Assembly (NCBI GenBank): GCA_025149285.1
Contig: CP102274.1
Span: forward strand, 826,501 to 890,500
Length of the DNA stretch: 64,000 nucleotides
Reading direction: 5' to 3'
DNA from: Hungatella hathewayi
GTDB lineage: Bacteria > Bacillota > Clostridia > Lachnospirales > Lachnospiraceae
Shown: positions 38,316 through 55,306 of the stretch, piece by piece
Layout of the letters: each line of letters starts with the position of its first letter
Numbering within the stretch: the first letter of the stretch is position 1
Position numbers and translations under genes: made by a program
Notes under the pieces: model-generated
Told to the model about the DNA's origin: nothing
The model's input: the letters and a program-made list of their open reading frames with translations, nothing else
The model's database searches: none

Positions 38316-38462
38316 AGTGTCAGCCTCCTCATCCTTGCAGTCAGTTGTTCCGTTAAAACTACAATGGGTATCCGCGCCGAAGTGCAGATACCCACACAAA
38401 ATCTGTATTTAATTTCCACCGGCCATGAGCCATAAGCTATGAGCCGAACGGACACGCCGGCA

Positions 38463-39701: not shown

Positions 39702-41522
39702 TCATCCAATTTCCCTGCATTTTTTATAAAAATGCTTTGCGTACCGGTACATAATGATCGTATATTCGCCGAACTCTTCTCCGAGCGCCGCCTTGTACAC
39801 AGCCCAGAGGCTCCATAAAAATCCGCCGAGGGCCATATGGGCGTAAACCGAATAACGCTCATCCAGTGACGGTTCACGTTCCAGATAAATCCGGATCAGC
39901 CGCTCAGTCTCCTCATCTGTATAATAGGAATAGATTGCGCACATGGCCACATCCACCAGCGGATCGCACATACCGGCGTATTCCCAGTCGATCAGCCGGA
40001 CCCCGCCGTCTTCCAGCATCAGGAAATTATCGCCGTTGTCATCGAGGTGAGAAAGGACTTTCCTGCGTCCCATGGAGTCCAGCCGGTCCATCAGTTCCGT
40101 CATCCAGCCACGTACTTTTCCGTAATCTTCAAATGGGATTTCTCCATGTCTCCTGCAAAGATCCTCATAAAAGTCAATCCGCTCCCTCATATCAAAAGAG
40201 TGCTCAACAGTAAGCCCGGAATGATGAAGGCGGCGAACGATTGCCATGCATTTTTCCATCTGCTCCCAGTTCCGGGGATCGGCATTATTGGCCCCGTCAT
40301 AATACTCCGCGATCTTATAACCGGTCTCTCCGTCAAAGTAAATGATTTTTTCCGTAATACCGAGACCGGCTACCACATCGTATACCGCCTTTTCCTGCCT
40401 TCTGTTAATAAGAAGCTCCGTACCCGGACCGGGAATTCTGCAGATATAGTGGCGTTCCTTCACTTTAAACAGAAATGATTTGTTCGTCATACCTGATTTT
40501 AAGCATCTGATTTCCGTTATTTCCGACTCAGGAACTTTGAAAACCCGGGCGACCAGTTCCATAGCCTCGTTGTCAGAATGGCGCTGATACTTGATATCAA
40601 ATCTCCGGAGTTCCTCCAGATTTTCAAACTCGTATACCTCATCCTCCGGTCTGCGGTTCACATACATGTCAATGTCTTCGCCTGCTTCCTTAAGGTCAGG
40701 AAGGCGTTTGGCCGCTTCTCCGGAGAGCATTTCCATATAGACATTTTCCCAATAGAACTGTTCCGTCCCCGGAAGCTCATAATAGGCCTCAAGGACAGGC
40801 AGAAATTTGGCAGTAAATTCTTTTGAGAAGTAGGAGGGGCCATACATGACCCACTGATTGGTTCCGCCAACTGAGACGCCTCCGATTCTGCCTTTCTTAT
40901 TATAATCGAGGCACCATTCTGAAGTCTCCCCTTCCATAAAAGCGGAAGAGTACCAGGCGCCGCCCTCATAGGCATGATACATATTGTGCCGCATCCAGTT
41001 ATCGGAAGAGAGAACATACATATTTCTGCCCCGCAGGACCTCTCTTGCGCGGTAAATGGTGGTCAGTGTATTCTTGGTAGAGTACTCGGGATTATATAGA
41101 AGCTTTACGTCATATTTATCAATCAGGTATTCAAATTTTTCTTTCAGATACCCGACGACAATCGTTATATCTTTGATGCCGACCTCATGGAGCTGCCGAA
41201 TCTGCCGTTCAATCATGCGTTCTCCGAAGACCTCCAGGAGACCCTTTGGCATTTCAAAGGTCAGGGGAACGAAACGGGATCCAAAGCCGGCGGCGATAAT
41301 CAGAGCTCCGTCAACCTTATATTGTTTCAGCAGCTCCAGCCCTGCCGGGAGCAGTTCGTATGCTCCGCCTGTACCGGCCGGCGTGATAAGATGCTGCGAA
41401 ATACATTCCTTCACAAGATTATTGGCTGTGCCGAGAGAGACATCCAGCGCCTGGGCCAGTTCCCGCTGTGTGATAGCAGGATTCTCGAGGATAGAACGGC
41501 AGATGATGATATTACGATTCAT
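39702..41522 (-). CDS. Fusion of winged helix, LicC-like cytidylyltransferase and LicA-like choline kinase
   Basis: 606 residues with three parts. Residues about 1-70: MarR/Lrp-like winged helix (ITQRELAQALDVSLGTANNL). About 72-300: nucleotidyltransferase of the LicC type, with the loop AAGFGSRFVPLTFEMPKG and later DNWM-type metal site. About 320-600: choline/aminoglycoside kinase fold, with SHLDDNGDNFLM as the Brenner-type motif and RLIDWEYAG. LicA and LicC make phosphocholine and CDP-choline for transfer to surface polymers in streptococci; here one protein could do both, under its own DNA-binding part. Ethanolamine or another amino alcohol is possible. Start supported by CGGAGG. No LicD transferase is seen in the window. 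Confidence 0.88.
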   Translation of the reverse strand: MNRNIIICRSILENPAITQRELAQALDVSLGTANNLVKECISQHLITPAGTGGAYELLPAGLELLKQYKVDGALIIAAGFGSRFVPLTFEMPKGLLEVFGERMIERQIRQLHEVGIKDITIVVGYLKEKFEYLIDKYDVKLLYNPEYSTKNTLTTIYRAREVLRGRNMYVLSSDNWMRHNMYHAYEGGAWYSSAFMEGETSEWCLDYNKKGRIGGVSVGGTNQWVMYGPSYFSKEFTAKFLPVLEAYYELPGTEQFYWENVYMEMLSGEAAKRLPDLKEAGEDIDMYVNRRPEDEVYEFENLEELRRFDIKYQRHSDNEAMELVARVFKVPESEITEIRCLKSGMTNKSFLFKVKERHYICRIPGPGTELLINRRQEKAVYDVVAGLGITEKIIYFDGETGYKIAEYYDGANNADPRNWEQMEKCMAIVRRLHHSGLTVEHSFDMRERIDFYEDLCRRHGEIPFEDYGKVRGWMTELMDRLDSMGRRKVLSHLDDNGDNFLMLEDGGVRLIDWEYAGMCDPLVDVAMCAIYSYYTDEETERLIRIYLEREPSLDERYSVYAHMALGGFLWSLWAVYKAALGEEFGEYTIIMYRYAKHFYKKCREIG

Positions 41523-42833
41523 GATGAATACCTCCGTGATTGATAATCATTATTTTAGTAAAATGCATATTTTAAAAGTAGAGATTTGGTGTTCAAAAAA
41601 TACGATATATTAATGTATGTGAACATTATAGCATAATTGTGGGGAAATGCAAGATTGGAGTTAGGGGATGAGAGGGAGAGAGGTGGGCGGTTGAAAGTTG
41701 GGAGTTGTTGAGAAGATGGAGATTGGGCAGGGGATTGACGATAATAGGAAGGGAGGGGCGGAGGGAGACGGTTTTAGAGGGGAGTTTGGGAGGAGGTTTA
41801 ATGAGATTTATTATATTGAGTAGGTCTTATATCTGTTTGTCTGCCTGGTATAGAAATATTATAGTATATATAAAAAGATGACTGTGTATAAAGAAATATG
41901 GAGGAGTGGTTCGGTAAAGGGGGGATTTGACGGGGGGAAGGAAGTGTTTGTAAAGAAGATTGTTTGTTAAGGGCATTATTTGTGAAAAGGGTTATTTGTA
42001 AAGAGTATTGTTGTAAAGATTATTATTTAATAGGTAAGAATAATATTGGTGGAGATAATTTGATTAAACATAATATTAGATAATTTCAGGTAAGCACAGA
42101 TATACACAGGATTATTATTAAGTGTAATTCGTTGGTCTAAGATTACGTGTGGTATTAAAAAGTGGGATAAGCTATTTACTTAAAAATTAGAGCTTTGTAA
42201 TTTATTCCGTCAAATGCTTTTATAATTTATAACATAGAAAGAAACATTTATTCAATGAGTGTATTTAATGAATGTATTCAATGAATGAAATGGAGTAAGA
42301 ATAAAAATGGAAGAATGGAAATAGGGAGGAGGGGAGCGTGCGTGGGCGAAAAAATACAGAGAGCACCGGAGTAAAGAGCGTAGCTGATCAGTCATTTTTG
42401 ATCCTATCAGTAATGAGCCTACAGTCTCTCGAATTCATTATTAGGATAATGGTGAATACTTAAAGTATGCAATAAAAGCTATTTTTACTATCTAAAATAT
42501 AAATCTGTATGATAGTTTCGCAATATAATGGTTTGTACTATTAAAATTTTGGCCGCATGCGACATCATGCATGCAGCGAAATATATAGCACAAAATTAAG
42601 AGAATTAAGCGGATAATCCGAAATAAGATTGGATTGTACTAATTTGAGTACAATATGTCGCGGAGGCCCGGTTTTCGTAAAGATTACGTAAGAAAATGCA
42701 CAGAGAAAAGTTATAGCATTTTTGAAAAAATTATATTATACTGTCAGTGTGATGGAGGAAATGATATTTTCCTGGAGGAATTGTGAATATTTATTACTTT
42801 TTGAAAAATATGCAAAAAAAGTGAAAAAAAGTA
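41523..42833. other. Long gene-free region, purine-skewed then AT-rich
   Basis: About 1.3 kb without a supportable gene. From about 41640 to 42000 the plus strand is very poor in C and rich in G and A, with runs such as GGGAGGGGCGGAGGG. From 42000 on it is AT-rich. An inverted repeat (ATTGTACT at 42633-42640 and AGTACAAT at 42647-42654) lies about 180 bases upstream of the cassette A promoter. It shows no convincing ORF or RNA gene. Confidence 0.6.
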
Positions 42834-42862
42834 TTGATAATTTCCCTTATAGGAAGTATAAT
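42834..42862 (+). promoter_or_regulatory. Promoter of cassette A; the only intact one of four
   Basis: TTGATA (42834-42839) and TATAAT (42857-42862), 17 bases apart, preceded by an A-rich stretch that could act as an UP element. The -10 box and spacer lie inside the block shared by cassettes A-D, but the first four bases of the -35 box lie outside it. At the same position B has CACCTA, C has CTTTTA and D has CCCATA, none of which looks like a -35 box. Confidence 0.75.
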
Positions 42863-42970
42863 TACCTCGTAATGCAATTAGGAATTTCAAAAAGTATTTC
42901 AAAAAGAAAAAGGAGAGTGCATTTTTATGAGAAAGCAGACAAAATTAGTTGCAGTATTATCTGCAGCAGC
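42838..42970 (+). repeat. Shared 5' block, copy A
   Basis: 133 bases identical to copy C and, except for the four or five bases just before the start codon, to copies B and D. It holds a TATAAT box, a TTCCcttataGGAA inverted repeat, a doubled TTTCAAAAAG, the AAAGGAG ribosome binding site and the first 44 bases of the signal peptide. Confidence 0.95.
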
Positions 42971-44597
42971 ACTGCTTGCCATCGGTGCTTCCATGACTTC
43001 TCTTGCAGCTACAGGCTGGCAGGAAGAAAATGGTACATGGGTTTATTATGATAAGAATGGCGATGCAGTAACAGAACAGTGGGCAAAATCCGGTAATAAC
43101 TGGTTTTGGCTCAATGAAGATGGTGAAATGGCTACGGATTATCTGGTAGATGATGATGGCAATTACTATTATGTGGATGCCAACGGAGCTATGGTAACCA
43201 ATCAGTGGGTTTCCATTGAAAATGAAGACTATGATGGAGACGATGGTGATGAACCGTTAAACTACTGGTATTATTTTGGAGCTAACGGCAAAGCATACAA
43301 GAGCTCTTCCAACAGCAACAGTGCATCATTTAAGACCATCAATGGCAAGAAATACATCTTTAACGATGAGGCTCAGATGCTTTATGGCTGGATTGATACA
43401 GACGGTCAGAGAGTAACTGGTGATGATGACTGGCGTGAAGGCACTTATTACTGTGGTGATGAAAATGATGGTGCTCAGAAGGCTGGAGAATGGGCTTATC
43501 TTGATATTACAGACAACAACTGGGACGATGTAGATACAGGGCTTTCCAGCAATAATCTGTTTGACGACGAAGATCAGACCCGCTATTTCTATTTCAAAAC
43601 TAATGGTAAGAAAATGACCGACGAGAAGGGAAAAACCATCAACGGCAGAAAATATAGTTTTGACGAATATGGCCGAATGAATGCAGAGTGGGTTAACTGG
43701 GATGCAACTCCATCCACAGCTAGCGCTGGTTCAGCTTCCTATACAACCGGTTACAGATACTATGGAGATCCTGAGGATGGTGCAAGAGTCACAAAAGGCT
43801 GGTTCCAGGTTGTTCCGGATTCTTATTTAAGCCCAGATGATTATGAAGACGATGAAAACAACTGGTATTATTCTGATAAGGATGGAAAATTAGTTGCCTC
43901 TGAAGTTAAAACAATCAATGGCAAGAAATATGCATTTGACTCTTATGGCGTAATGAAGAGTGGCCTGAAGGCAATTAAGTTCGTTGGAAGCAGCACTACT
44001 GAAATCGACGAAATTAAGGGCGATGATGGTATCGCTAATATGCATTTCGATACAGAAGATAACTTCAAGGATAACGTTTCTGACTTATATGGTGCTGATT
44101 ATAAGTTATATTACTTTGGATCCGGCGATGACGGCGCTATGAAGACAGGAAAGCAGACCGTAACCATTGATGGAGAGGACTATTCCTTCTTATTCAACAA
44201 ATCGGGCAGCTCCAAGGGTGCTGGTAAATTAGGTATCGATGACGATAAGTATTACTTAGGCGGCATGTTATTAAAGGCATCTAAAGATGACAAGTATTCT
44301 GTAATCAAAATTACAAAAGATGCAAGTGGTACAATTACTGCACTGGAATGCTTAAGTACAGAAGAGTTCCTTGATGATGTAAATGCAACTTCCTCTATTC
44401 CGACAGGAAAAGCCGACGATTACGATGAGTACTATGATGTAAAAGCCGATGCTGCTGATACTGCTACAACACAGTACAGACTTGTAAATACCTCTGGTAG
44501 TGTTCAGAAGAATAAGAATAAAGCAAAAGACGGCGATGATCGTTGCTTCAAGGTTGGCAGCAATAAAGAAATTGAGGCTGTTTTTGTAGAAAGCTAA
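42927..44597 (+). CDS. Cassette A: secreted cell-wall-binding repeat protein
   Basis: 556 residues. Signal peptide (about 1-28) shared with B-D, then about three short cell-wall-binding repeats (GWQEENGTWVYYDKNGD start), followed by three composite units of roughly 90 residues, each opening KTINGKKY.F and closing with a WYYF-type repeat, and a C-terminal section with LVNTSGSVQKNK as in the others. Very acidic (many Asp/Glu) and AT-rich compared with the genes before 36 kb. Probably a non-covalently wall-bound surface protein; no catalytic domain. It is the only one of the four genes with a full promoter. Ends before a shared 3' box and a private terminator. Confidence 0.9.
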   Translation: MRKQTKLVAVLSAAALLAIGASMTSLAATGWQEENGTWVYYDKNGDAVTEQWAKSGNNWFWLNEDGEMATDYLVDDDGNYYYVDANGAMVTNQWVSIENEDYDGDDGDEPLNYWYYFGANGKAYKSSSNSNSASFKTINGKKYIFNDEAQMLYGWIDTDGQRVTGDDDWREGTYYCGDENDGAQKAGEWAYLDITDNNWDDVDTGLSSNNLFDDEDQTRYFYFKTNGKKMTDEKGKTINGRKYSFDEYGRMNAEWVNWDATPSTASAGSASYTTGYRYYGDPEDGARVTKGWFQVVPDSYLSPDDYEDDENNWYYSDKDGKLVASEVKTINGKKYAFDSYGVMKSGLKAIKFVGSSTTEIDEIKGDDGIANMHFDTEDNFKDNVSDLYGADYKLYYFGSGDDGAMKTGKQTVTIDGEDYSFLFNKSGSSKGAGKLGIDDDKYYLGGMLLKASKDDKYSVIKITKDASGTITALECLSTEEFLDDVNATSSIPTGKADDYDEYYDVKADAADTATTQYRLVNTSGSVQKNKNKAKDGDDRCFKVGSNKEIEAVFVES

Positions 44598-44612
44598 TTG
44601 TAATTAACAATA

Positions 44613-44631
44613 AGAAATTCTAATTGCCAAA
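44613..44631 (+). repeat. Shared 3' box, copy A
   Basis: AGAAATTCTAATTGCCAAA, 16 bases after the stop. The same 19 bases follow all four cassettes. It begins with the palindrome AGAAATTCT. Confidence 0.85.
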
Positions 44632-44646
44632 GAAGTTCTGTTTTGA

Positions 44647-44690
44647 ATGTTGGAAGTGTACTTAACGAGTACATTTCCAACATTTTTTTA
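44647..44690 (+). terminator. Terminator of cassette A
   Basis: ATGTTGGAAGTGTACTT and AGTACATTTCCAACAT form an imperfect long stem, followed by TTTTTT. It differs in sequence from the terminators of B, C and D. Confidence 0.85.
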
Positions 44691-44763
44691 ATTTGATTGA
44701 GCAGTCTTGGGCGAATATAATTTTAACAGCTTATATCCTTGAATACACAAATGAATACACAAA

Positions 44764-44815
44764 TAAAGAGGATATTCAACAAATTATGATACGCTTTGTT
44801 GAATACCCTCTTTTA
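44764..44815 (-). terminator. Terminator of cassette B
   Basis: Read on the minus strand, AAAGAGGGTATTCAACAAA pairs with TTTGTTGAATATCCTCTTT and is followed by TTTG-type bases. The stem sits just beyond the shared 3' box of B. Confidence 0.8.
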
Positions 44816-44830
44816 GCAATTAGAATTTCT
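44812..44830 (-). repeat. Shared 3' box, copy B
   Basis: AGAAATTCTAATTGCTAAA on the minus strand, one base different from the other copies. Like copy A it is preceded by TA rather than TT. Confidence 0.85.
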
Positions 44831-44859
44831 TATCGAAATTTATGGAATTACTAATTATA

Positions 44860-46320
44860 TTATTTTGCCTTTGCAGTACTTCCAAAGTATGTTACCACAC
44901 CATATTCATCTGTACAGTAGTACATACCATCAGCATCTTTTAAGTTGGTCTTCTTCTTCATGATAGAAGCAGATGTATTAACTAAATATCCACCAACCTT
45001 ACCAGCAACTTCTTTACCATCTTCACCAAAGGACTGATATCTGTAGTCTTTGTCAGCTTTGATCTTACGTCCTAAAACTAACAGAGTCTTCTTGGTCTCA
45101 TTTACACCTTTGTACTTAGTAGCGCCTGTGGTACCAAAGGAATAAGAATAGTTATCGCCATCTACATCAATGGTCTGATTACCAGTCTTAGCTGCGCCAT
45201 CATCCCCACTACCAAAATAGTATACGGCATAATTTTTGTTTGTACTATATGCTGCATATGCAGTATCGAATTTACCAGCGTCATCAATTTCAATCATTTC
45301 GCCAAGAATTTTACCAGTAGAATCAATATTAAGTGCCCATAATCCACTGATCATTTCGCCATTAGCATTAAATGCGTATTTCTTGTTATTGATTGTCTTT
45401 AAAGCTGAGTTATATACATTACCACTTCCGTCAGCATAGAACCACTTTGTAGAATCATCATCATAAGCGCTCTTATTAACCTTTTCTGCCGGAACTACTT
45501 TAACCCAGCCCTTCTGTAATCTCCAACCTTCATCGCCACCGTTGAAGTACTGATATTCAGTAATAGTAGCTACATCTGCATCTGTTGCCAAAGTATCAGT
45601 CCAACCATCCTGCATTACACCAGTCTCATCAAACGCATACTTCTTGCTGTTAATTGTCTTGATTGCAAACTTTGTAGCATCGTCAGCTGCATACTTTTTG
45701 CCATTCGATGGGTTGAAGTAGAACCAGTAGCTCTTATCTTCATCATCTTTAATAACATCAAGTTTCATCCAGCCTGAAGCACGAGAACCATCATTTTCGT
45801 CGCCACAGTAATAATCACCTGACTGCCATGCATCATCGCCAGTGATTCTGGTAGCATCCTCTTTGTTTACCCAGCCATAAAGCATCTTGCCTTCGCTGTC
45901 AAAAGCATATTTCTTACCGTTGATTGTCTTGAAAGAAGCGGAACCGGAGGACTTATATGCCTTACCATTAGCCTGGAAATAATACCAGTATGCATCTGGC
46001 TCGTCAGTATCGCCTGCATTCTCATTCTCAACTGCTACCCATCCATTAGTTACCATAGCACCATTGGAATCTACATAGTAGTAGTTTGTACCATCATCGA
46101 TCAGTTCATCGGTAGCCATAACGCCATCACCGTTTAAATAGAACCAAGCGTCTCCTGATTTTGCCCAAGTATCTGTTACCTGATCGCCGTCCTTGTTATA
46201 ATAAACCCACTCGCCATTCTCTTCCTGCCAGCCAGTTGCTGCAAAAGAGGTCATGGAAGCGCCGACAGCTAACAGAGCTGCTGCAGATAATACTGCAACT
46301 AATTTTGTCTGCTTTCTCAT
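44860..46320 (-). CDS. Cassette B: secreted cell-wall-binding repeat protein
   Basis: 486 residues, same plan as cassette A: shared signal peptide, short wall-binding repeats (GWQEENGEWVYYNKDGDQ start), composite KTINGKKYAFD units, and a C-terminal LVNTSGSIMKKK and YYCTDEYGVVTYF section. It lies tail-to-tail with A. Its shared 5' block has the -10 box, leader and ribosome binding site but, upstream, CACCTA in place of a -35 box, so it looks silent in this orientation. Coding sequence is intact, with no frameshift. Confidence 0.9.
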   Translation of the reverse strand: MRKQTKLVAVLSAAALLAVGASMTSFAATGWQEENGEWVYYNKDGDQVTDTWAKSGDAWFYLNGDGVMATDELIDDGTNYYYVDSNGAMVTNGWVAVENENAGDTDEPDAYWYYFQANGKAYKSSGSASFKTINGKKYAFDSEGKMLYGWVNKEDATRITGDDAWQSGDYYCGDENDGSRASGWMKLDVIKDDEDKSYWFYFNPSNGKKYAADDATKFAIKTINSKKYAFDETGVMQDGWTDTLATDADVATITEYQYFNGGDEGWRLQKGWVKVVPAEKVNKSAYDDDSTKWFYADGSGNVYNSALKTINNKKYAFNANGEMISGLWALNIDSTGKILGEMIEIDDAGKFDTAYAAYSTNKNYAVYYFGSGDDGAAKTGNQTIDVDGDNYSYSFGTTGATKYKGVNETKKTLLVLGRKIKADKDYRYQSFGEDGKEVAGKVGGYLVNTSASIMKKKTNLKDADGMYYCTDEYGVVTYFGSTAKAK

Positions 46321-46410
46321 AATTAATGCACTCTCCTTTTTCTTTTTGAAATACTTTTTGAAATTCCTAATTGCATTACGAGGTAATTATACTTCCTATA
46401 AGGGAAATTA
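46277..46410 (-). repeat. Shared 5' block, copy B (inverted relative to A)
   Basis: 134 bases matching copy A except that the bases before the start codon read TAATT instead of TTTT. Being in the opposite direction to A, the pair forms 3.4-kb-spaced inverted repeats suitable for inversion. Confidence 0.95.
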
Positions 46411-46734
46411 GGTGGAAGAAGAATGTGATTAATAATTGATACTGCTTGATATACTAGATTTTATAATTAAATTACAGATTATATGCTTTGCATTAAAAAT
46501 ATCCATGTAACAAAGCTTGCCTGCATGCAATGCATAATTTGTTTAAAAAATGAATATTTATTACAGCGATATTATTGCTTTTTATCGAAAAATATACGTA
46601 TATTTTTATTGCTTTGATATTATATAAAATTAAAAGCAAGTCTTATTATACCAATCATATGTGTTAGTAAGACTCGCTTTCAACTATATATTATACAATG
46701 AATTCCTGATATAAGCAGAATTAATGCTTCTAAC
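46411..46734. other. AT-rich gap between cassette B and the ATPase gene
   Basis: No gene. Contains the ATPase terminator and otherwise only AT-rich sequence upstream of cassette B without a -35 box. Confidence 0.6.
46632..46680 (-). terminator. Terminator of the ATPase gene
   Basis: AAAGC-AGTCTTA and TAAGACT-GCTTT form the stem; on the minus strand it is followed by TAATTTTA. Confidence 0.7.
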
Positions 46735-48153
46735 TCACTCTAAATCATAAAGTTCATCAAGCGTAAAGAGTTTCATGTAAACCGACTGTTGAGCAGTTAA
46801 TTTTAGTACACTATCGCTAAATCCTTTCTTCGAGTATAATATATACCCTTTCTTTCTATATCTGGAAAAGAGTTCGGAGCGTTGGATTAACAGTTCCAGC
46901 GTATCCAGATCAAGAACTTCATTTCGATATTTGCATTCACCGAACAATGCAGTCTTATCTATATCGTTGATTCCCATTATATCAATCTCTTCCTGGCGCT
47001 TTAAAACCGGATTATTGCCCCACCATCTGCCAAGTTTTAATATATCATAAGGAAATTTTTCCTGAGCGTTAAGCATAGCAACATGTTGCAGACACATTTT
47101 CTCAAATACCTTTCCCATATAATTCTGCAAATCGGGAACAATAATTTTTTCATAAGCTCGTTCCGGGCGTCTGGTATTAATGAGCAGCATGCATTTTGGC
47201 ACATAACGGTACCAGAAGCGGAACATATGATCCGCCAGGATATAGCCGGTTTTCTTTTTGTTATCTTCTTCTGTAATGGCACTTTCCTTTTCGACTAACC
47301 CTAAAGAGATTAATGACTTAAGACATGCCGAAACATTTGAATTTTCCATTTGTACTTTATTAGATATTTCATTTAGTTTTGTAGCTCCCTGTGCGATTGC
47401 TTCAACAATAGCGTTATAATTGGCCGGTTCTTTTAATTCCTGCTTCATCAGATTAGCAGGCTCCTCGTAAAGATAGGCGTTCGGATTTAAATACATCTCC
47501 AAAATATTTTCCTTAATCGAAATAGAGTCATCTACCATTTCCAGGTATTGAGGAATTCCGCCAGTTATACCATATACGAGTGCCTTTTCTTCCGCTGAAT
47601 ATCGGGGCACAAATAAAGAAGACTCATAGTAATCTAATGGATCAAGCCGAAATTGTGCTGTTCTTCTTCCATATAGAGGACTTTGATATCCCAAAACCTG
47701 ATTCTCCATAAAACTCATGGACGAGCCACATAGAATGAGCATAATATTACTGGTTTTCCATTCCTGATCAATCGTAGCCTGAAGAATCGAAGAAATACTT
47801 TTATCCGCCTGAGCCAGATAAGGATATTCATCAATAATAAGTAATACTTTTGATTCTTTCGCTTTTTGAGTAATATATTGTAAGGCAGTTCTAAAATCTT
47901 TGAATGATGGCATCAATGTAGCCTCTTCTTCACCTAAAAATGTCAGATAGGTAGCAGTGCTAAGAAGTTCCAGATTTATGGCTATACCGGCCTCTACTGC
48001 TGTCATATAGACAGCGGACTTGTCTTTCATAAACTCTTGTATCAATCTGGTTTTTCCTATTCTACGACGTCCGTAGATGACTGCCATTTGAAATGAGGTT
48101 TTATTGTATAACTTATTTAGTTCGTTTAATTCAGTTCTTCTTCCTATAAACAT
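46735..48153 (-). CDS. AAA ATPase with DUF234/PD-(D/E)XK-like C-terminus
   Basis: 472 residues. N-terminal ATPase of the archaeal-type family: FIGRRTELNELNKLY, Walker A YGRRRIGKTRLIQEF (about residue 28-42), Walker B KVLLIIDEYPYLA (about 118-130). A winged-helix segment (about 240-300) follows, then the DUF234 region, where EEIDIMGIN and GECKYR look like a restriction-type nuclease core. Such proteins are widespread and poorly understood; some are thought linked to mobile or defence functions. It lies between divergent cassettes B and C. An inverted repeat upstream (48181-48206) could control it. A role in cassette inversion is possible but unsupported. Confidence 0.85.
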   Translation of the reverse strand: MFIGRRTELNELNKLYNKTSFQMAVIYGRRRIGKTRLIQEFMKDKSAVYMTAVEAGIAINLELLSTATYLTFLGEEEATLMPSFKDFRTALQYITQKAKESKVLLIIDEYPYLAQADKSISSILQATIDQEWKTSNIMLILCGSSMSFMENQVLGYQSPLYGRRTAQFRLDPLDYYESSLFVPRYSAEEKALVYGITGGIPQYLEMVDDSISIKENILEMYLNPNAYLYEEPANLMKQELKEPANYNAIVEAIAQGATKLNEISNKVQMENSNVSACLKSLISLGLVEKESAITEEDNKKKTGYILADHMFRFWYRYVPKCMLLINTRRPERAYEKIIVPDLQNYMGKVFEKMCLQHVAMLNAQEKFPYDILKLGRWWGNNPVLKRQEEIDIMGINDIDKTALFGECKYRNEVLDLDTLELLIQRSELFSRYRKKGYILYSKKGFSDSVLKLTAQQSVYMKLFTLDELYDLE

Positions 48154-48180
48154 ATAATTTCTCCATTATATTTTAAGATA

Positions 48181-48206
48181 TTATACTATGAATGATTATA
48201 GTATAA
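48181..48206 (-). promoter_or_regulatory. Inverted repeat upstream of the ATPase gene
   Basis: TTATACTAT and ATAGTATAA are perfect 9-base arms around an 8-base spacer, 28-53 bases before the ATPase start. Likely an operator, because the arms contain -10-like TATACT sequences. Confidence 0.45.
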
Positions 48207-48429
48207 CATCTCATAGTAAACATAGCAATACTAATTAATTAAGTCATTGCTTTAATATTTTTTACAATAGGGGACAATTAAATATACAATTATTTTTATA
48301 TTCATTCATAAATTATAATAATATAAAAATATCACTATAATATATGCGTTGAATAATTTTTGATTAGTATTTAAAGATAAATATCAAACAGATGACAAAA
48401 CTGCTGATTTATTATCACCTATTTCCTTT
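48207..48429. other. AT-rich sequence upstream of cassette C
   Basis: No gene. At the position where cassette A has its -35 box, this flank has CTTTTA, so no full promoter for cassette C is seen. Confidence 0.6.
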
Positions 48430-48562
48430 TAATTTCCCTTATAGGAAGTATAATTACCTCGTAATGCAATTAGGAATTTCAAAAAGTATTTCAAAAAGAA
48501 AAAGGAGAGTGCATTTTTATGAGAAAGCAGACAAAATTAGTTGCAGTATTATCTGCAGCAGC
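48430..48562 (+). repeat. Shared 5' block, copy C (same direction as A)
   Basis: 133 bases identical to copy A, including TTTT before the start codon. Direct orientation to A (recombination would delete) and inverted orientation to B and D. Confidence 0.95.
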
Positions 48563-50159
48563 TCTGTTAGCTATCGGTGCCTCCATGACTTCCTTCGCAG
48601 CTACAGGCTGGCAGGAAGAAAGTGGTACATGGGTGTATTATGATAATGATGGCTACAAAGTAAGCAACGAATGGAAGAAGTCGGGAAATAACTGGTTCTA
48701 TCTTAATGACGACGGAGAGATGGCAACAGAAACTCTGGTTGAAGACGGCGATTATACCTATTATGTTGATGAGAATGGTGTTATGGCTGCTAACAGATGG
48801 GTACAGGTAGCTAATGATGACGATAACAGTGATGATGCACCAGCAAACTACTGGTATTATTTTCAGGCATCTGGAAAAGCATATAAAGCTGGCGACTCAA
48901 CTTCCTTCAAGACTATCAACGGTAAGAAATATGCTTTTGATGATGAAGGAAAGATGTTATATGGCTGGGTTGATGGCACATCTAACAGAATAACTGACGA
49001 TGAAGGCTGGAAAGAATCTACTACACTTTATTATTGTGGTACAGAAGATGATGGTGCACAGAGAGTTGGCTGGGCACAGATTCATGTAATTAATAAAGAT
49101 GAAGATGACGAAGATCAGGACTACTGGTTCTACTTCAAAGCAAATGGTAAAAAGCTCTTTGCTGAAGATGGAGATTCCATTACCAACAAAACAATCAACG
49201 GCAGAAAATATGGCTTTAATAGCTGGGGTAAGATGGTATCTGGCTGGACAGAGGCTACTGCCGGAGAAATTCCAACTGCTTCTAATTACCAGAACTACAG
49301 CACTTCTGAAGATGGTTCCAGAAGAAAAGGCTGGTTTAAGGCAGTTCCAACAGATAAGATTAACAAAGAAGCAAATCAGGATGATGAAGAGAAGTGGTTT
49401 TATGCCAACAATGATGGCTATTTAGTAGTAAATCAGTTAAAGACCATCAATGGTAAGAAGTATGCATTCTACGACAAAGGTGAAATGTTAAGCGGATTAT
49501 ATGCATTAGGCGTAGATGATGATAATTTTATCTGGGGTGCAGAGAAGATTGACAGTGAGTCTAAGGTTAAATCCTACTGGGCTCCGAAGGAAGAAGATTC
49601 TAAGGCTGGTATTCCATTAAGTGACGAGAGAGCTACTTATGTAGATGAGAATAATATCAAATTAAATGTTGATGTATATTATTTCGGATCTTCTGACGAT
49701 GGTTCCATGAAGACTGGCGTTCAGAATGTCGATGTTGATGGCGATACCTATGCTTACTTCTTTGGTAAGAGTGGCAATAATAAGGGTAAAGGATTTGGTT
49801 CTACAACTGTAGGCAATTATTCTGATACAGTACTTGGTGATGGTACAGTTGTTAAGACCTTTATCTATGATAAGAGTGCCATGTATGTTCAGGGTAGAAA
49901 GATCAAAGCAGACAGTGATCTGAAATACGAAGCATTTGATGCCATAGGTGTTAAAGTATCAGCTAGAAACGAAGGTTATAAAGATGAACCTTTATTCTTA
50001 CTTAACTCCTCAGGTTCTCTGATGAAGAATAAGAAGAATGTTAAAGACGGTAATGATATGTATTACTGTACAGACGGTGCCGGAAGAGTTACTTATTATG
50101 GTTCCGAAAAATGTGACAGCAAAGACGGCGTTAAACATGACAAAAACAATATTCACTAA
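48519..50159 (+). CDS. Cassette C: secreted cell-wall-binding repeat protein
   Basis: 546 residues, same plan as A: shared signal peptide, GWQEESGTWVYYDNDGY-type short repeats, three composite KTINGKKYAF units of about 80-100 residues, and a C-terminal LLNSSGSLMKNKKNVKDGND section. Acidic and AT-rich. Intact frame. Its upstream flank lacks a -35 box, so expression from this position is doubtful. A shared 3' box and private terminator follow, then another secreted protein gene 77 bases on. Confidence 0.9.
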   Translation: MRKQTKLVAVLSAAALLAIGASMTSFAATGWQEESGTWVYYDNDGYKVSNEWKKSGNNWFYLNDDGEMATETLVEDGDYTYYVDENGVMAANRWVQVANDDDNSDDAPANYWYYFQASGKAYKAGDSTSFKTINGKKYAFDDEGKMLYGWVDGTSNRITDDEGWKESTTLYYCGTEDDGAQRVGWAQIHVINKDEDDEDQDYWFYFKANGKKLFAEDGDSITNKTINGRKYGFNSWGKMVSGWTEATAGEIPTASNYQNYSTSEDGSRRKGWFKAVPTDKINKEANQDDEEKWFYANNDGYLVVNQLKTINGKKYAFYDKGEMLSGLYALGVDDDNFIWGAEKIDSESKVKSYWAPKEEDSKAGIPLSDERATYVDENNIKLNVDVYYFGSSDDGSMKTGVQNVDVDGDTYAYFFGKSGNNKGKGFGSTTVGNYSDTVLGDGTVVKTFIYDKSAMYVQGRKIKADSDLKYEAFDAIGVKVSARNEGYKDEPLFLLNSSGSLMKNKKNVKDGNDMYYCTDGAGRVTYYGSEKCDSKDGVKHDKNNIH

Positions 50160-50168
50160 TAATTGATT

Positions 50169-50187
50169 AGAAATTCTAATTGCCAAA
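50169..50187 (+). repeat. Shared 3' box, copy C
   Basis: AGAAATTCTAATTGCCAAA, identical to copy A, here within a longer palindrome TTAGAAATTCTAA, as in copy D. Confidence 0.85.
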
Positions 50188-50216
50188 GCGGACGAAGATT
50201 ATTATTCGTCCGCTTT
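50185..50216 (+). terminator. Terminator of cassette C
   Basis: AAAGCGGACGAA and TTCGTCCGCTTT form a perfect stem, followed by a short TTTT. It lies 21 bases before the next gene, so read-through may be partial. Confidence 0.85.
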
Positions 50217-50236
50217 TAAAAGTTAAAGGAGATTGT

Positions 50237-51706
50237 ATGAAAAAAGTATACTATCAACTGACTCTAATACTTGCTATTCTTGTACTGACAGGAGTTTTTA
50301 ATATATTTCCAGCAAAAGGAGAGACCTTACTGACTTCAATTAAAGATAACGATGTTCCGACTATGGCTAGTGATAGCAATGCATCAAAGCAAAGAGATAT
50401 TGACAAGTCTAAAAATACTCTTATTAGTATATCATCGGCGAATATAGTCTTTGACCTCCATCATGAACTTGATAATACTTATAGCCTACCTCAACCAATC
50501 AATGTAACTATTGAATTAGCCCAATCAGACACTCCTAAAACTAATATTCATTTTGAAGTATCAGATAATTTGACTGAAAAATTATCAATCACCCCCGAAT
50601 CTTTTGACATACTAGAGCCAGAAAGACAAGCCGATATTCAGGTTGCATTTATAGACAAGAATCTGGATACATTAAATCAACTACCGTATGATAGTGGGTA
50701 CATTAACATTTTATCAGAAAATGAAATATTAGGACAAATTAATGTAACTTATTGCATCGATGGATTGTATGATGAACATTATACTAATAATATTGATCGA
50801 TATTCAGGAACAAAGATTCGAATAGACGGTAGCTTTTATAAAAACATCGGCAGCATAAATCTCAGAAACTCAGTTCCCCCAGTAATGACAATTACTTTTA
50901 ATCCGTATATTTTAGATACAAGCAATGTGCCTAATGATATGGGAGTAGAAATAAATAACGACTCGCTTGGACGTATTTTATTAAATGAGGTTGGAAATTT
51001 TGAATTTTCAGATCATACGTTTGAACAGAATATTATTGATGGAAATAAAAAGGTAACCTTGTATATACAGATGAAGCAATCTGTTTTTGATGATATAAAG
51101 GAAAAGGCTAAACAGAATCCAAGTGCTTATAATGGGAGCTATCTGTTATCTGACTTGGTGTTCGAATTTAAGGATGGTTGCCGAATGGGAGGAAGAATCT
51201 CCCCACTGCCATTAGTATATAAAATAACGCCCGAATCATACAACAATAGCAGTAATTCTGGCGGAGGTAATTCGAGCGGAAGCAGTAATAGCAGTAATAC
51301 AAACAGTGGCCCTGGCATAGATAGTACCTTTACATCTAACGAGTATAATACTATTGGAAGCAATGATATTGGCTGGCGACAGAGTGATAATGGAATGTGG
51401 CAGTATCTGGGACCGGATGGACGCGTCAAAACAGGCTGGTTATGGGACCCAACGGGTATCTGGTATTATATAGATTCTACAGGTAATATGGTCACTGGCT
51501 GGGCCCAAATAAACAATATATGGTATTTATTACGCCCTGATGGTTCTATGGTAACAGGGTGGTCATTTACGGCAGATAAGTGGTACTATTTCAATCAGGA
51601 TGGATCAATGAGAACTGGCTGGTTCCAGGATACGGATAAAAGATGGTATTATTTTCAGAATGATGGTTCTATGGCCATGGAAACGACAACTCCGGATGGA
51701 TTATAA
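50237..51706 (+). CDS. Secreted protein with unrecognised N-terminal domain and five cell-wall-binding repeats
   Basis: 489 residues. Signal peptide (about 1-28), then about 300 residues of an unrecognised, beta-rich-looking extracellular region (for example PQPINVTIELAQSDTP, IHFEVSDN), a Ser/Asn/Gly linker (about 350-385) and five wall-binding repeats (GWRQSDNGMWQYLGPDGRVK first). It does not carry the shared 5' block. The ATG with AAAGGAG five bases upstream is preferred over a longer in-frame reading. It lies directly behind the cassette C terminator and may depend on read-through. It ends tail-to-tail with cassette D. Confidence 0.85.
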   Translation: MKKVYYQLTLILAILVLTGVFNIFPAKGETLLTSIKDNDVPTMASDSNASKQRDIDKSKNTLISISSANIVFDLHHELDNTYSLPQPINVTIELAQSDTPKTNIHFEVSDNLTEKLSITPESFDILEPERQADIQVAFIDKNLDTLNQLPYDSGYINILSENEILGQINVTYCIDGLYDEHYTNNIDRYSGTKIRIDGSFYKNIGSINLRNSVPPVMTITFNPYILDTSNVPNDMGVEINNDSLGRILLNEVGNFEFSDHTFEQNIIDGNKKVTLYIQMKQSVFDDIKEKAKQNPSAYNGSYLLSDLVFEFKDGCRMGGRISPLPLVYKITPESYNNSSNSGGGNSSGSSNSSNTNSGPGIDSTFTSNEYNTIGSNDIGWRQSDNGMWQYLGPDGRVKTGWLWDPTGIWYYIDSTGNMVTGWAQINNIWYLLRPDGSMVTGWSFTADKWYYFNQDGSMRTGWFQDTDKRWYYFQNDGSMAMETTTPDGL

Positions 51707-51722
51707 GATAATGCGACATATT

Positions 51723-51760
51723 AAAGAGGCTATCGCATTTATTATACGATAGCCTCTTTT
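51723..51760. terminator. Bidirectional terminator between the 489-residue protein and cassette D
   Basis: AAAGAGGCTATCG and CGATAGCCTCTTT form a perfect 13-base stem, with TTTTT on the plus strand and A/T bases on the other. Serves both converging genes. Confidence 0.88.
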
Positions 51761-51777
51761 TGGCAATTAGAATTTCT
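51759..51777 (-). repeat. Shared 3' box, copy D
   Basis: AGAAATTCTAATTGCCAAA on the minus strand, within TTAGAAATTCTAA as in copy C. It directly abuts the terminator stem. Confidence 0.85.
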
Positions 51778-51797
51778 AAATCTTATTAATAAAGAAA

Positions 51798-53357
51798 TTA
51801 TTTGTGTTTTGGATTACTACAAGTATAAACGGTACCGTCGTCTTTCTTCGTTCCGCACTTGGTTTCGCTATAACCAGTTACATGTCCCTTAGAATCTGTG
51901 CAGTAGTATCCGTCGTCTGTATCTTTCAGATTTTTCTTATTCTTCATGATAGATCCGGATGTATTTACTAAGTAAGCATTCTGATCATCGATAATAGTTG
52001 TTGGATCTTCTACAGCTGTTCCATTCTTAAACGCCTGGTATCTCATATCAGAATCGGCTTTAATTCTAAGACCATTTACATAAAGAACGTCATCAGCTTC
52101 ACTTAAGCCACGGCCCTTGTTAGAACCTGTTTTCCCAAATGAGAATGCATATGTGTCACCATCAACATCAACATTCTGATTACCAATCTTCATAGCACCG
52201 TCGCTACCAGCGCCGAAGTAGTAAACATATACATCTGATCCGATTGTATAAGTATTGCCATTATAGCCTTCGAATGATAAAGTGCCAGCCTTTAATGCAT
52301 CAACTAAATCAGCATCATCAATAGCCTTATTTCCAACAATTTTACTGCTTGATGACATAGCTAATGCCTGAACACCGCTAAGCATCTCACCCTTGTTATT
52401 AAATGCATACTTCTTGCTAGAGATAGTTTTGATTTCAGATTTGACTAAATCGCCATCACTCTCAGCATAGAACCATTTTGCACTGTCATCGTTATATGCA
52501 CTTTCATTTACATCTTCTTCCGGAACAACATTAAACCAACCTTTAGCTCTCCAGCCCTGATCTGACAGGTTGAAATAATGATAACTGCTAATGGAAGCCT
52601 GATCAGCAGTTGCCTTTGGCATTGCCCACTCAGATACCATTTTACCATATTCATTAAAGGCATACTTTAATCCATTGATGGTCTTGCTCTTTAATTCACT
52701 AGCATCAGAAGCCTTAACCTTCTTGCCATTGCTTGCATCAAAGTAGAAGTAGTAGCTCTGATCAGGATCATCCTGAGTGTCATCTACAACATCGATCAGC
52801 GCCCAACCGTTTGCCTGTGCACCATCATTTTCATCGCCACAGAAGTAAAGGCCATTAGTCCAAGCATCATCACCTGTCTGGCGCTCTGAACTTTCATTTA
52901 CCCAACCGTAGAGCATCTTGCCTTCGCTGTCAAAAGCATATTTCTTGCCATTGATATTTTTGAAAGAAGTTTTTCCACTGGTCGGAGCTTTATATGCTTT
53001 ACCATTACTCTGGAAGTAATACCAGAAGTAGTCAGGATCGTCATCACCGTAGCTGTCTTCATTTTCTACCTGAATCCACTGATTTGTTACCATAGCGCCG
53101 TTGGCATCTACGTAATAGGTGTAATCATCATCTTCAACGATTGCGTCAGTAGTCATTTCTCCATCACTGTTTAAATAGAACCAGTTGTTACCTGATTTCT
53201 GCCACTGATCACTTACCTGATAACCATCCTTGTCATAATAAACCCATGTACCGTTCTCTTCCTGCCAGCCCTGAGCCGCGAAGGAGGTCATGGAGGCACC
53301 GATAGCTAACAGAGCTGCTGCAGATAATACTGCAACTAATTTTGTCTGCTTTCTCAT
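51798..53357 (-). CDS. Cassette D: secreted cell-wall-binding repeat protein
   Basis: 519 residues. Shared signal peptide, GWQEENGTWVYYDKDGYQ start, short wall-binding repeats, composite KTINGKKYAFD units (SFKNINGKKYAFDSEGKMLY, KTINGLKYAFNEYGKM, IKTISSKKYAFNNKGEM), and a C-terminal LVNTSGSIMKNKKNLKD section followed by YYCTDSKGHVTGY. Intact frame. Its flank has CCCATA where A has a -35 box. It is the outermost cassette, next to the polysaccharide operon, and inverted relative to A and C. Confidence 0.9.
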   Translation of the reverse strand: MRKQTKLVAVLSAAALLAIGASMTSFAAQGWQEENGTWVYYDKDGYQVSDQWQKSGNNWFYLNSDGEMTTDAIVEDDDYTYYVDANGAMVTNQWIQVENEDSYGDDDPDYFWYYFQSNGKAYKAPTSGKTSFKNINGKKYAFDSEGKMLYGWVNESSERQTGDDAWTNGLYFCGDENDGAQANGWALIDVVDDTQDDPDQSYYFYFDASNGKKVKASDASELKSKTINGLKYAFNEYGKMVSEWAMPKATADQASISSYHYFNLSDQGWRAKGWFNVVPEEDVNESAYNDDSAKWFYAESDGDLVKSEIKTISSKKYAFNNKGEMLSGVQALAMSSSSKIVGNKAIDDADLVDALKAGTLSFEGYNGNTYTIGSDVYVYYFGAGSDGAMKIGNQNVDVDGDTYAFSFGKTGSNKGRGLSEADDVLYVNGLRIKADSDMRYQAFKNGTAVEDPTTIIDDQNAYLVNTSGSIMKNKKNLKDTDDGYYCTDSKGHVTGYSETKCGTKKDDGTVYTCSNPKHK

Positions 53358-53447
53358 AATTAATGCACTCTCCTTTTTCTTTTTGAAATACTTTTTGAAA
53401 TTCCTAATTGCATTACGAGGTAATTATACTTCCTATAAGGGAAATTA
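53314..53447 (-). repeat. Shared 5' block, copy D (inverted relative to A and C)
   Basis: 134 bases matching copy B, including TAATT before the start codon, and matching A and C elsewhere. Its outer end lies 107 bases from the -35 box of the polysaccharide operon promoter. Confidence 0.95.
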
Positions 53448-53553
53448 TGGGCAGTATTGGAAGGGGCGGAAATGCGTTGAAATACTGGGAATAAAAGTTG
53501 CAAAAATTCATAAAATCTTAAATAATATCCCAGCTTTTTCATGAGGGAAGCGG

Positions 53554-53582: not shown

Positions 53583-53653
53583 GTGTAATAAAAGTAAATC
53601 AGTAAACCATAAATTGATGTGTTCTGGTAATATGCAGTTTGGAGAGGATAATT

Positions 53654-55306
53654 ATGTCGTCAGTGAAAATTAATAAAAGTAAGAATAGTAAAAGTGATTC
53701 GGCACTTTTATCACATATAATAGATATTTTTACGTTTTTAATATTATGTTTGTTTCCACTTTTTGTAATGGATAAATATTATAATATATTACAGGCAAAA
53801 TATTATTTTTATATTGGTTCAGTGATACTATTAGTTATAGCTGTTATTTTTGCGGGCTGTATAGAACACAATAAGCTGGAAAAGTATATTACATCTTTTA
53901 AGTGGAACGACTTTATAAAGAAATTTTCTGTTACGGATGTCGCACTGCTGGTCTTTCTAATCATCGCGGGTATCTCAACGATAAGTTCCGATTACGTATA
54001 TGAATCTTTTTGGGGGAATGAAGGGCGGTTTTCAGGGCTCTTCTTACTCTGTTTGTATGGTGTGGCATATTTTTGTGTTACCAGATTCGGAAAATTAAAA
54101 AGATGGTATTTAGATGCCTTTTTAATTGCAAATATGCTGGTTTGCATATTTGGGATTACAGATTACTTTAAGATGGATCTTTTACATTTTAAGGTGGGCA
54201 TGCTGGAAGAACAGAAATTTATGTTTACCTCAACGATCGGTAACATTAATACATATACTGCACTGGTAGGGATGGTGACCGCAGTATCGGCAGTATTATT
54301 TGCAGTGGAAGATAAATGGAAAAAACAGAGCTTTTATTTTGTCAGTCTTGTGATCAGTTTTTTTGCACTGGTGATGGGCATCAGTGATAACGCCTATTTA
54401 TCATTAGCAGCTTTGTTTGGATTCCTTCCGCTGTATTTATTTAAGAATAAGAAAGGAGTAAAATCCTATTTATTAATTCTTACTGCATTTTTTTCGGTAA
54501 TCCAATGCATCGACTGGATTAATACTGGAATGGGAGATAAAGTACTGGGAATTGACAGTGCTTTTAATATAATAGTTAAATACGACGGATTATTATTGAT
54601 TGTAACAGCTCTTTGGATTATTTGTGCCATTGTTTATGGGTTAGATTATTTATATGCAAAAAAGAAGAGCCGGAATGTGGAGATACGTGGCGGAGATTCC
54701 GAAGAGAATGGGAAAAAGTTAACCGGGTGTGGCGTTTTGCGAATTATCTGGCTGGCGATATTGGTTATCTGTATTTTAGGAATTGGATATGCCTTATATG
54801 ATGTGAATATCCAGGGGAATACGGAACGATATGGAGCCATTGGTGGTTACCTGTTGTTTAATGATGACTGGGGGACTCACAGAGGCTATATCTGGCGAAA
54901 TGCTATGGAATGCTTTGAACAATTTCCAGTAATGAAAAAGATATTTGGCTTTGGGCCTGATACCTTTGGAATTGTTTTGTTGGATAAGACAAAGGGAAAT
55001 ATTTATGGCCAAATTTTTGATAATGCCCATAATGAGTATCTGCATTATCTTATTACAGTAGGAATTACAGGATTAATGGCGTATCTTGTTTTTATAAGTT
55101 CTTTTGTAGTTCGAGTTATTCGTAAAGCTGGAAAAAATCAGTATATTGTAGCGGTTTTTTTTGCAGTGCTGTGTTATAGTACACAGGCATTTGTTAATTT
55201 GAATTTACCAATTGCAACTCCGGTCATGTGGATGTTTCTGATGCTGGGTGAATTAAACATTAGAGAACGTTACAGACAGTCTGGAAGTAAGGATAAAGGA
55301 AAATGA
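53654..55306 (+). CDS. O-antigen ligase/polymerase-like membrane protein
   Basis: 550 residues with about 11-12 membrane segments and a large loop carrying the O-antigen ligase-type HNEYLHYLITVG segment near the C-terminal third. It probably polymerises or ligates a surface polysaccharide. Start ATG with GGAGAGG upstream is preferred over an earlier in-frame TTG. First gene of the operon; overlaps the next by four bases (ATGA). Not distinguishable from sequence as polymerase or ligase. Confidence 0.82.
   Translation: MSSVKINKSKNSKSDSALLSHIIDIFTFLILCLFPLFVMDKYYNILQAKYYFYIGSVILLVIAVIFAGCIEHNKLEKYITSFKWNDFIKKFSVTDVALLVFLIIAGISTISSDYVYESFWGNEGRFSGLFLLCLYGVAYFCVTRFGKLKRWYLDAFLIANMLVCIFGITDYFKMDLLHFKVGMLEEQKFMFTSTIGNINTYTALVGMVTAVSAVLFAVEDKWKKQSFYFVSLVISFFALVMGISDNAYLSLAALFGFLPLYLFKNKKGVKSYLLILTAFFSVIQCIDWINTGMGDKVLGIDSAFNIIVKYDGLLLIVTALWIICAIVYGLDYLYAKKKSRNVEIRGGDSEENGKKLTGCGVLRIIWLAILVICILGIGYALYDVNIQGNTERYGAIGGYLLFNDDWGTHRGYIWRNAMECFEQFPVMKKIFGFGPDTFGIVLLDKTKGNIYGQIFDNAHNEYLHYLITVGITGLMAYLVFISSFVVRVIRKAGKNQYIVAVFFAVLCYSTQAFVNLNLPIATPVMWMFLMLGELNIRERYRQSGSKDKGK

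Follow-up and report, generated by a model that had tools for sequence, protein, structure and literature searches.

The sap S-layer genes of Campylobacter fetus have conserved 5' ends and a single promoter, and they undergo inversions that are linked to RecA, with the whole promoter lying on one invertible segment. In Mycoplasma agalactiae, the dependence of the Vpma system on the recombinase Xer1 was shown by disruption, and the sites proposed for recombination are in the 5' untranslated region (-1 to -72), with the entire promoter upstream of them, as set out in the sections of that report cited here (PMC2268961). In Clostridioides difficile, a 195-bp segment between 21-bp repeats flips 3' of the cwpV promoter, and a terminator has been proposed, again according to the cited sections (PMC2784873). 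A survey of gut Clostridia detects two-repeat invertons, among them group 139 with invertase group 35, and the words Hungatella, symbiosum and choline have no occurrence in its main text (PMC11892184). No Lachnospiraceae cassette system was found in the titles and abstract openings returned by searches of the open-licence PMC literature, or in the available parts of PMC3047005 and PMC5903667. In this study, we analyzed a 64,000-nucleotide stretch of Hungatella hathewayi (the window; bases 826501-890500 of a single-contig genome of 6.93 Mb, G000) that contains an array of four homologous genes for predicted surface proteins, cassettes A to D. The sequence suggests, with a probability of roughly 0.8, that the four cassettes are shuffled by an Xer-like tyrosine recombinase. 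Its crossover point would be the centre of a dyad that separates the -35 from the -10 box, and the sole -35 would thereby select the transcribed cassette.

One complete promoter among four cassettes

The array comprises, in order, cassette A (+), cassette B (-), an ATPase gene (-), cassette C (+), a second repeat gene (+) and cassette D (-). A first-pass annotation of this DNA had described nearly identical blocks of about 133 bp at the start of each cassette. A search of the whole 6.93-Mb genome located them at the same places, with four copies in the genome and all of them in the array (A, 42838, +; B, 46410, -; C, 48430, +; D, 53447, -). Copies A and C are identical across the 133 bp, and the identity of B and D is 98.5%. 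Upstream of TAATTTCC, an alignment of the four copies showed no common sequence. All four cassettes encode choline-binding-repeat proteins (Pfam PF19127/PF19085/PF01473). Here and below, the ON label is a call of the -35 box from sequence. Cassette A (42927..44597, +), which encodes 556 amino acids with a signal peptide recognized by eye, is predicted to be ON. Cassettes B (44860..46320, -; 486 amino acids), C (48519..50159, +; 546 amino acids) and D (51798..53357, -; 519 amino acids) are predicted to be off.

The hexamers at the -35 position are TTGATA in A, CACCTA in B, CTTTTA in C and CCCATA in D, as previously annotated, and only A has a real -35. The core promoter of A (TTGATA, 17 bp, TATAAT; 42834..42862, +) is the sole complete one among the four blocks, and we refer to its position as the expression site. 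It was the top sigma-70 match within 13 kb (11/12), and the promoters of B, C and D were absent from the 60 best sigma-70 matches in these 13 kb, after which 8 weaker ones follow. The window therefore holds one promoter and several homologous surface-type genes that lack a full promoter. Like A, each of the latter keeps a -10 box, a leader and the first coding bases of its own, and on this pattern the off cassettes are predicted to be silent.

The block boundary falls in a 28-bp dyad

The boundary of the block had been placed within the -35 box. It does cut this box, but it also coincides with the left arm of a 28-bp element in which two 11-bp arms surround a 6-bp centre (an 11-6-11 dyad). The dyad spans the spacer between -35 and -10, with the -35 in the left arm and the -10 beginning at the last base of the right arm. 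Site A, AGTATTGATAA.TTTCCC.TTATAGGAAGT (42830..42857, +), has most of the -35 in its left arm, and 6 of its 11 arm positions pair. The -35 is missing from site B, CTTCCACCTAA.TTTCCC.TTATAGGAAGT (46391..46418, -; 5/11 pair), site C, TTTCCTTTTAA.TTTCCC.TTATAGGAAGT (48422..48449, +; 6/11 pair), and site D, ACTGCCCATAA.TTTCCC.TTATAGGAAGT (53428..53455, -; 9/11 pair). The centre and right arm, TTTCCC.TTATAGGAAGT, are identical at all four sites, and in this sense a common candidate recombination site is present at every gene. When the genome was searched with the 21-base junction core allowing up to 3 mismatches, the four sites and one place with 3 mismatches were found, and a reversed control gave 0 matches.

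The comparison was extended to a family sample of 397 genomes, in which the block search scored two candidates per genome; the comparison genomes are mostly drafts. Any match was obtained in 48 of the 397 genomes and a match of at least 100 bits in 22, including this genome and its sister H. effluvii. This threshold and the division into single-copy and multi-copy genomes were chosen after the match results had been inspected. Pooling of the family search with the handle, genus and GTDB scans gave 81 anchored copies from 36 genomes, including four from C57_80, of which two are degenerate. Copies with the -10 region off the anchor stand outside the 81, among them those of G111, G398, G400, G117 and G293, one of three in G048, and the distant L032-L039.

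In 36 off copies across genomes, the left and right arms matched at 6.97 of 11 positions in register and at 2.50-3.86 when slid by 1-4, with genomes taken as independent. Perfect dyads, with differing letters, are found in H. hathewayi WAL-18680 (G149), C57_80, 1XD42-76 and G111, and the arm motif can be written as ACTTCCGATAA-N6-TTATCGGAAGT. Within 20 of the 22 multi-copy genomes the centre was uniform across all anchored copies, and eight distinct centres were found between genomes. Tyrosine recombinases require identical centres, and a uniform centre per genome fits what such an enzyme requires.

Another dyad, ACTTCCCATAA.TCGCGC.TTATAGGAATC, with a different centre, was seen 41 kb right of the array (L120:11147-11174, corresponding to G000:C1:921147-921174). 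It is flanked by two divergent glycosyltransferase-like genes, identified by eye.

Most genomes have one copy with a -35

Exactly one copy with a TTG -35 was present in 21 of the 22 genomes with at least two anchored copies. Label shuffling, uncorrected for relatedness, reached 21 in 0 of 20,000 trials, with a maximum of 19. A -35 was also found in 11 of the 14 single-copy genomes. Labels for the unanchored copies of G111, G398 and G400 were read by eye; outside the count above, one of the three copies in G400 has a -35, TTGATA. Between genomes, flanks were homologous in 431 of 496 ON-ON pairs, 0 of 1524 ON-off pairs and 16 of 1133 off-off pairs. The A flank of the window is homologous to ON flanks in other genera, and a similar divergent gene lies upstream in all eight ON flanks inspected at length (by eye, with Pfam on two). 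Since both the ON flanks and their upstream neighbor are conserved, the promoter site looks old and fixed. Off copies lie 2.1 Mb from the ON site in G399 (one pair), and four off cassettes of G404 sit on a separate contig.

Cassettes appear exchanged between sister species

In three pairs of sister species, the ON flanks are 86-93% alike and the gene at one of these flanks is 76-93% identical to an off gene of the other species, compared with 46-67% between the two ON genes. In H. effluvii DSM 24995 (G001), a D-type gene (78% amino acid identity) follows the A flank (92% over 245 nt), so that the nearest relative of the off cassette D sits at the ON flank there. The D flank (79% over 112 nt) leads into another gene, and the A-type gene (93% amino acid identity) lies behind a flank without a -35; paralogues are about 50% identical. 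Leader variants just 5' of the start codon go with the gene, those of A-type and D-type each being the same in both Hungatella species, which places the exchange point in H. effluvii upstream of them. The G001 arrangement looks derived because the ON gene of the outgroup P2415, which has one copy, is A-like (64%). L. celerecrescens is less informative as an outgroup (ON 67% and off 65% to A). A transposase-like open reading frame (L009:5511-5939, by eye) lies at the end of the contig that carries the displaced A-type cassette in H. effluvii.

The same pattern was found in two other genera. The ON gene of Copromonas avistercoris is 90.7% identical to an off gene of C. faecavium versus 52.7% to its ON gene (flanks 86%), and that of C. 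symbiosum ATCC 14940 (G403) is 91.7% identical to an off gene of G404 versus 66.7% to the G404 ON gene (flanks 93%). The matching off gene of G404 is the inverted partner, 3.4 kb away. Overall, 12 between-species pairs had ON flanks at least 84% identical over at least 150 nt; eight of them had genes that could be read and involved one or more multi-cassette genomes, the other four being three single-copy pairs and one unreadable pair. In five of the eight, an off gene was the best match by at least 7 points in at least one direction, two of the five sharing one H. effluvii event. The earlier proposal of cassette exchange behind a single promoter is thus supported by the D-type gene at the A flank of H. 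effluvii, by the exchanges in two other genera and by the single -35 in 21 of 22 genomes.

Two explanations without active switching were considered for these swaps. It is highly improbable that the swaps in H. effluvii and in the other drafts are assembly errors at a repeat. Short-read assembly can be misled by 133-bp repeats, in G001 the block is no more than about 2.3 kb from an end of contigs C23 and C15, contig C39 measures just 5.9 kb, and the other two pairs are mostly drafts. However, the joins lie inside contigs, with a whole gene beyond the block, in three independent data sets, and G404 and G399 are assembled in 10 and 2 contigs. Contig ends at blocks in drafts were also considered as a sign of mixed orientations and were set aside uncounted, since a repeat longer than k explains them equally well. 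Alternatively, the cassettes could be an old duplicated family with no current switching, in which selection or gene conversion maintains the likeness of the leaders and rearrangements are rare evolutionary events. Block conservation of 84-98% in the best-matching genomes agrees with this, and so does the observation of swaps between species only. We consider it unlikely, as the one-ON rule, the separation of ON and off flanks and the identical centres within genomes fit a maintained switch, and all three swaps are located at the block.

A candidate recombinase clade accompanies multi-copy arrays

It had been noted that a recombinase from outside the window, either RecA or a gene elsewhere, would be needed. 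The genome has 29 matches to PF00589, some of them split, which correspond to about 26 tyrosine recombinase genes. One of these, at G000:C1:927616-928425 (269 amino acids), lies 37 kb right of the window and 48 kb from D. Its catalytic domain scores 92.8 bits with PF00589 (cut-off 27.1), and its scores fall under the NCBIfam cut-offs for XerC (94.8/335 bits), XerD (91.3/330) and XerA (129.9/220). R, K, HxxR, H and Y have catalytic roles in tyrosine recombinases, and these positions are common to the candidate and the XerD-like protein of the genome. By sequence, its nearest relatives of solved structure are XerC-like, XerA and XerD proteins. The H. effluvii orthologue is 98% identical and shares a contig with the D flank, at a distance of 57 kb.

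We defined a clade of this recombinase at E <= 1e-60, scoring up to six candidates per genome in the 397 genomes. Its full-length members are 53-66% identical to the candidate, compared with at most 33% for the other small recombinases of the genome that were compared. The clade occurs in 32 of the 397 genomes, namely in 17 of the 22 with a block of at least 100 bits versus 15 of the 375 without (Fisher 4e-17), and among the 22 block genomes in 15 of 15 multi-copy versus 2 of 7 single-copy genomes (Fisher 8e-4), with relatedness uncorrected in both tests. Six other genomes have a clade gene as the immediate neighbor of an off copy: H. hathewayi WAL-18680 (G149), Lacrimispora celerecrescens, G034, G217, G048 and G020. 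From this association, we infer that the acting enzyme is the clade member at G000:C1:927616-928425. The call for a recombinase outside the window has thus been answered by a candidate gene elsewhere, and RecA is not favored.

General homologous recombination of the conserved blocks by RecA, with no dedicated enzyme, was considered by analogy with the C. fetus S-layer genes. The copies are indeed near-identical over 133 bp, and five genomes (G321, G172, G253, G059 and G361) have the block without a clade member at E <= 1e-60. However, each of these five has one site-bearing copy (the second in G253 is a partial leader match without the site), and the clade is present in every one of the 15 multi-copy genomes sampled. 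Similarity stops upstream at a dyad with arms that covary from genome to genome, a feature not required for homologous recombination, and 133 bp is short for efficient RecA exchange. A RecA mechanism is therefore quite unlikely, and the C. fetus analogy is not the best one, given the 11-6-11 dyad and the Xer-like clade that co-occurs with multi-copy genomes.

The clade was also found in another setting. In G366 and G057, neither of which had a block match in the family search, a clade gene adjoins a pair of inverted dyads that are separated by 156 bp and have similar arms and reverse-complement centres, and this pair precedes csrA- and flagellin-like genes (L135:1271-1454 and L136:1299-1482). 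In G366, the NCBIfam scores are under the cut-offs (csrA 52/73 bits; flagellin 186/352 for a fragment cut by the locus end), and the labels in G057 were assigned by eye. The arrangement has the appearance of an invertible segment, and Lachnospiraceae may thus show phase variation of flagella. As a predicted segment, it is an independent pointer to the pairing of this enzyme with this site.

The host XerC/XerD pair working on dif-like sites was considered as well. Site A is the sole place in the genome with at most 3 mismatches from a Firmicutes dif consensus, and the site arms end in ATAA/TTAT, as in dif. The dif of the genome itself was not found with this consensus, site A being the only match, so the dif comparison is weak. 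The clade, in contrast, co-occurs with multi-copy arrays, adjoins sites in several genera and accompanies similar arms before csrA and flagellin, which makes action by XerC/XerD very unlikely.

Further recombination-related features were seen in the genome. A diverged choline-binding-repeat gene (L120:16118-17476) is divergent from the candidate recombinase; it has a related leader, and no 28-bp site was seen there. Six more small tyrosine recombinases of 280-300 amino acids (G000 L096, L098, L100-L103), 40-52% alike, may each serve other inversions. A proposed association of tandem recombinases with asymmetric dyads and of single ones with symmetric dyads was unsupported (means 7.38 for 8 copies versus 6.81 for 16 copies).

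Proposed mechanism

We propose that the Xer-like tyrosine recombinase would cross over in TTTCCC, the 6-bp centre of the 28-bp dyad, and would thereby place a different cassette, with its -10, leader and gene, behind the fixed -35. As the -35 and the -10 stand on opposite sides of the crossover point, the exchange alone would yield a full promoter, and the cassette landing behind the sole -35, at present A, is likely the transcribed one. Recombination of A with B (3.6 kb) or D (10.6 kb) would give an inversion and change the ON gene. Inversion between C and D (5 kb) could allow C to reach the promoter in a second step, and B with C would invert the 2 kb between the B and C flanks. The pairs A with C and B with D are in direct orientation and would give deletions. 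Because each inversion product retains one -35, one active cassette is predicted in each. Such inversion is presumably reversible and frequent, and the variation probably changes the cell surface.

Several observations weigh against this mechanism. The arms in the window are imperfect (A 6, B 5, C 6 and D 9 of 11), worst at B, and the shared leader 3' of the site exceeds the length that a site requires. The one-ON rule is broken by G048, where 0 of 2 anchored copies have a -35 (0 of 3 with the unanchored copy), and outside the count a -35 is found in 0 of 4 copies in G111 and 0 of 9 in G398. No swap was found in two of the eight informative pairs (window versus P2415 and window versus L. celerecrescens; ON flanks 84-86%), and G321 versus L. 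celerecrescens is marginal (65.8 versus 62.9). The recombinase gene lies away from the array here, in a genome with many other tyrosine recombinase genes, and in 15 genomes the clade is present although a strong block is lacking. The label shuffles, the slid-arm comparison and the Fisher tests all leave kinship between genomes uncorrected.

A broader reading, on balance probable, is that this is an ancient, family-wide split-promoter shufflon of gut Lachnospiraceae. A fixed expression site beside a choline-kinase-like gene would provide only a -35 and an upstream element, and each cassette would bring its own -10 and leader, so that a dedicated Xer-like enzyme would build the promoter while recombining. 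Choline-binding genes both nearby and unlinked would serve as reservoirs, and the same clade would run flagellin promoters in relatives.

Other features of the array

The second choline-binding-repeat gene lies 3' of C (50180..51706, +), with an ATG at 50237, 77 bp beyond the C stop, and it likely moves together with cassette C. The arrangement has a counterpart in G404 (32% identity). Between the B and C flanks lies an ATPase_2/DUF234 AAA ATPase gene (46735..48153, -), and the G404 array has a homologue (46% identity) in the equivalent position. Four arrays, those of the window, G404, C. symbiosum (G403) and G399, contain such an ATPase, with 45-48% identity (homologue loci L204:7704-9161, L206:5517-6911, L211 and L197), and the G404 array has the full order of the window: A+, B-, ATPase-, C+, extra gene+, D-. 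The array ATPase is possibly an accessory part.

A terminator-like hairpin of 19 pairs (44645..44685, +) lies between the convergent cassettes A and B. On the left, a nucleotidyltransferase/choline-kinase-like fusion gene (39702..41522, -; Pfam) is divergent from the expression site and marks the fixed flank. Farther left, at 36465-39587, two further choline-binding-repeat genes, one with a GH25 lysozyme domain, were seen; both lack the block. On the right flank is a Wzy_C (O-antigen ligase-like) gene (53639..55306, +), with a similar neighbor in G001 and others. An Rfam scan of the array at gathering cut-offs matched no family, so the leader is not explained by any curated RNA family.

Discussion

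If the proposed mechanism is correct, common commensals of the gut, Hungatella and Clostridium symbiosum among them, diversify a family of wall-bound surface proteins by a mycoplasma-like mechanism, and a crossover within the core promoter would guarantee a full promoter for one cassette only. The site motif, the enzyme clade and the marker of the expression site together allow the state of a genome or metagenome to be scored. A connection of surface variation with phage or host recognition and with colonization would then be testable.

Compared with known systems, the array differs from C. fetus sap in that the whole promoter lies on the invertible segment there, whereas here the promoter is divided by a dyad, and the arrays are accompanied by a recombinase clade. 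With cwpV and RecV, in the cited sections, it shares a Firmicute cell-wall protein and a site-specific recombinase gene distant from the locus; one gene is turned on or off there, whereas whole cassettes would be exchanged here (PMC2784873). The window also departs from a two-site inverton of the RecV/CwpV type in having four sites, each 5' of its own full-length gene. The inverton survey, in its available portion, offers a likeness in the Clostridia tyrosine-type recombinases that adjoin inverted repeats, as in group 139 with invertase group 35 (PMC11892184).

The likeness to Vpma, in the sections of the report cited, is a multigene surface family with one promoter, behind which silent genes are moved site-specifically there and would be so moved here (PMC2268961). 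The tyrosine recombinase gene is beside the locus in Vpma and 48 kb from D here. The site is in the leader there, whereas here the putative site is inside the core promoter and the predicted silent cassettes keep their own -10. The products are lipoproteins there and unrelated choline-binding-repeat proteins here (PMC2268961). Taken together, these comparisons suggest that the system works like Vpma/Xer1 single-promoter shuffling and differs in that its site splits the core promoter.

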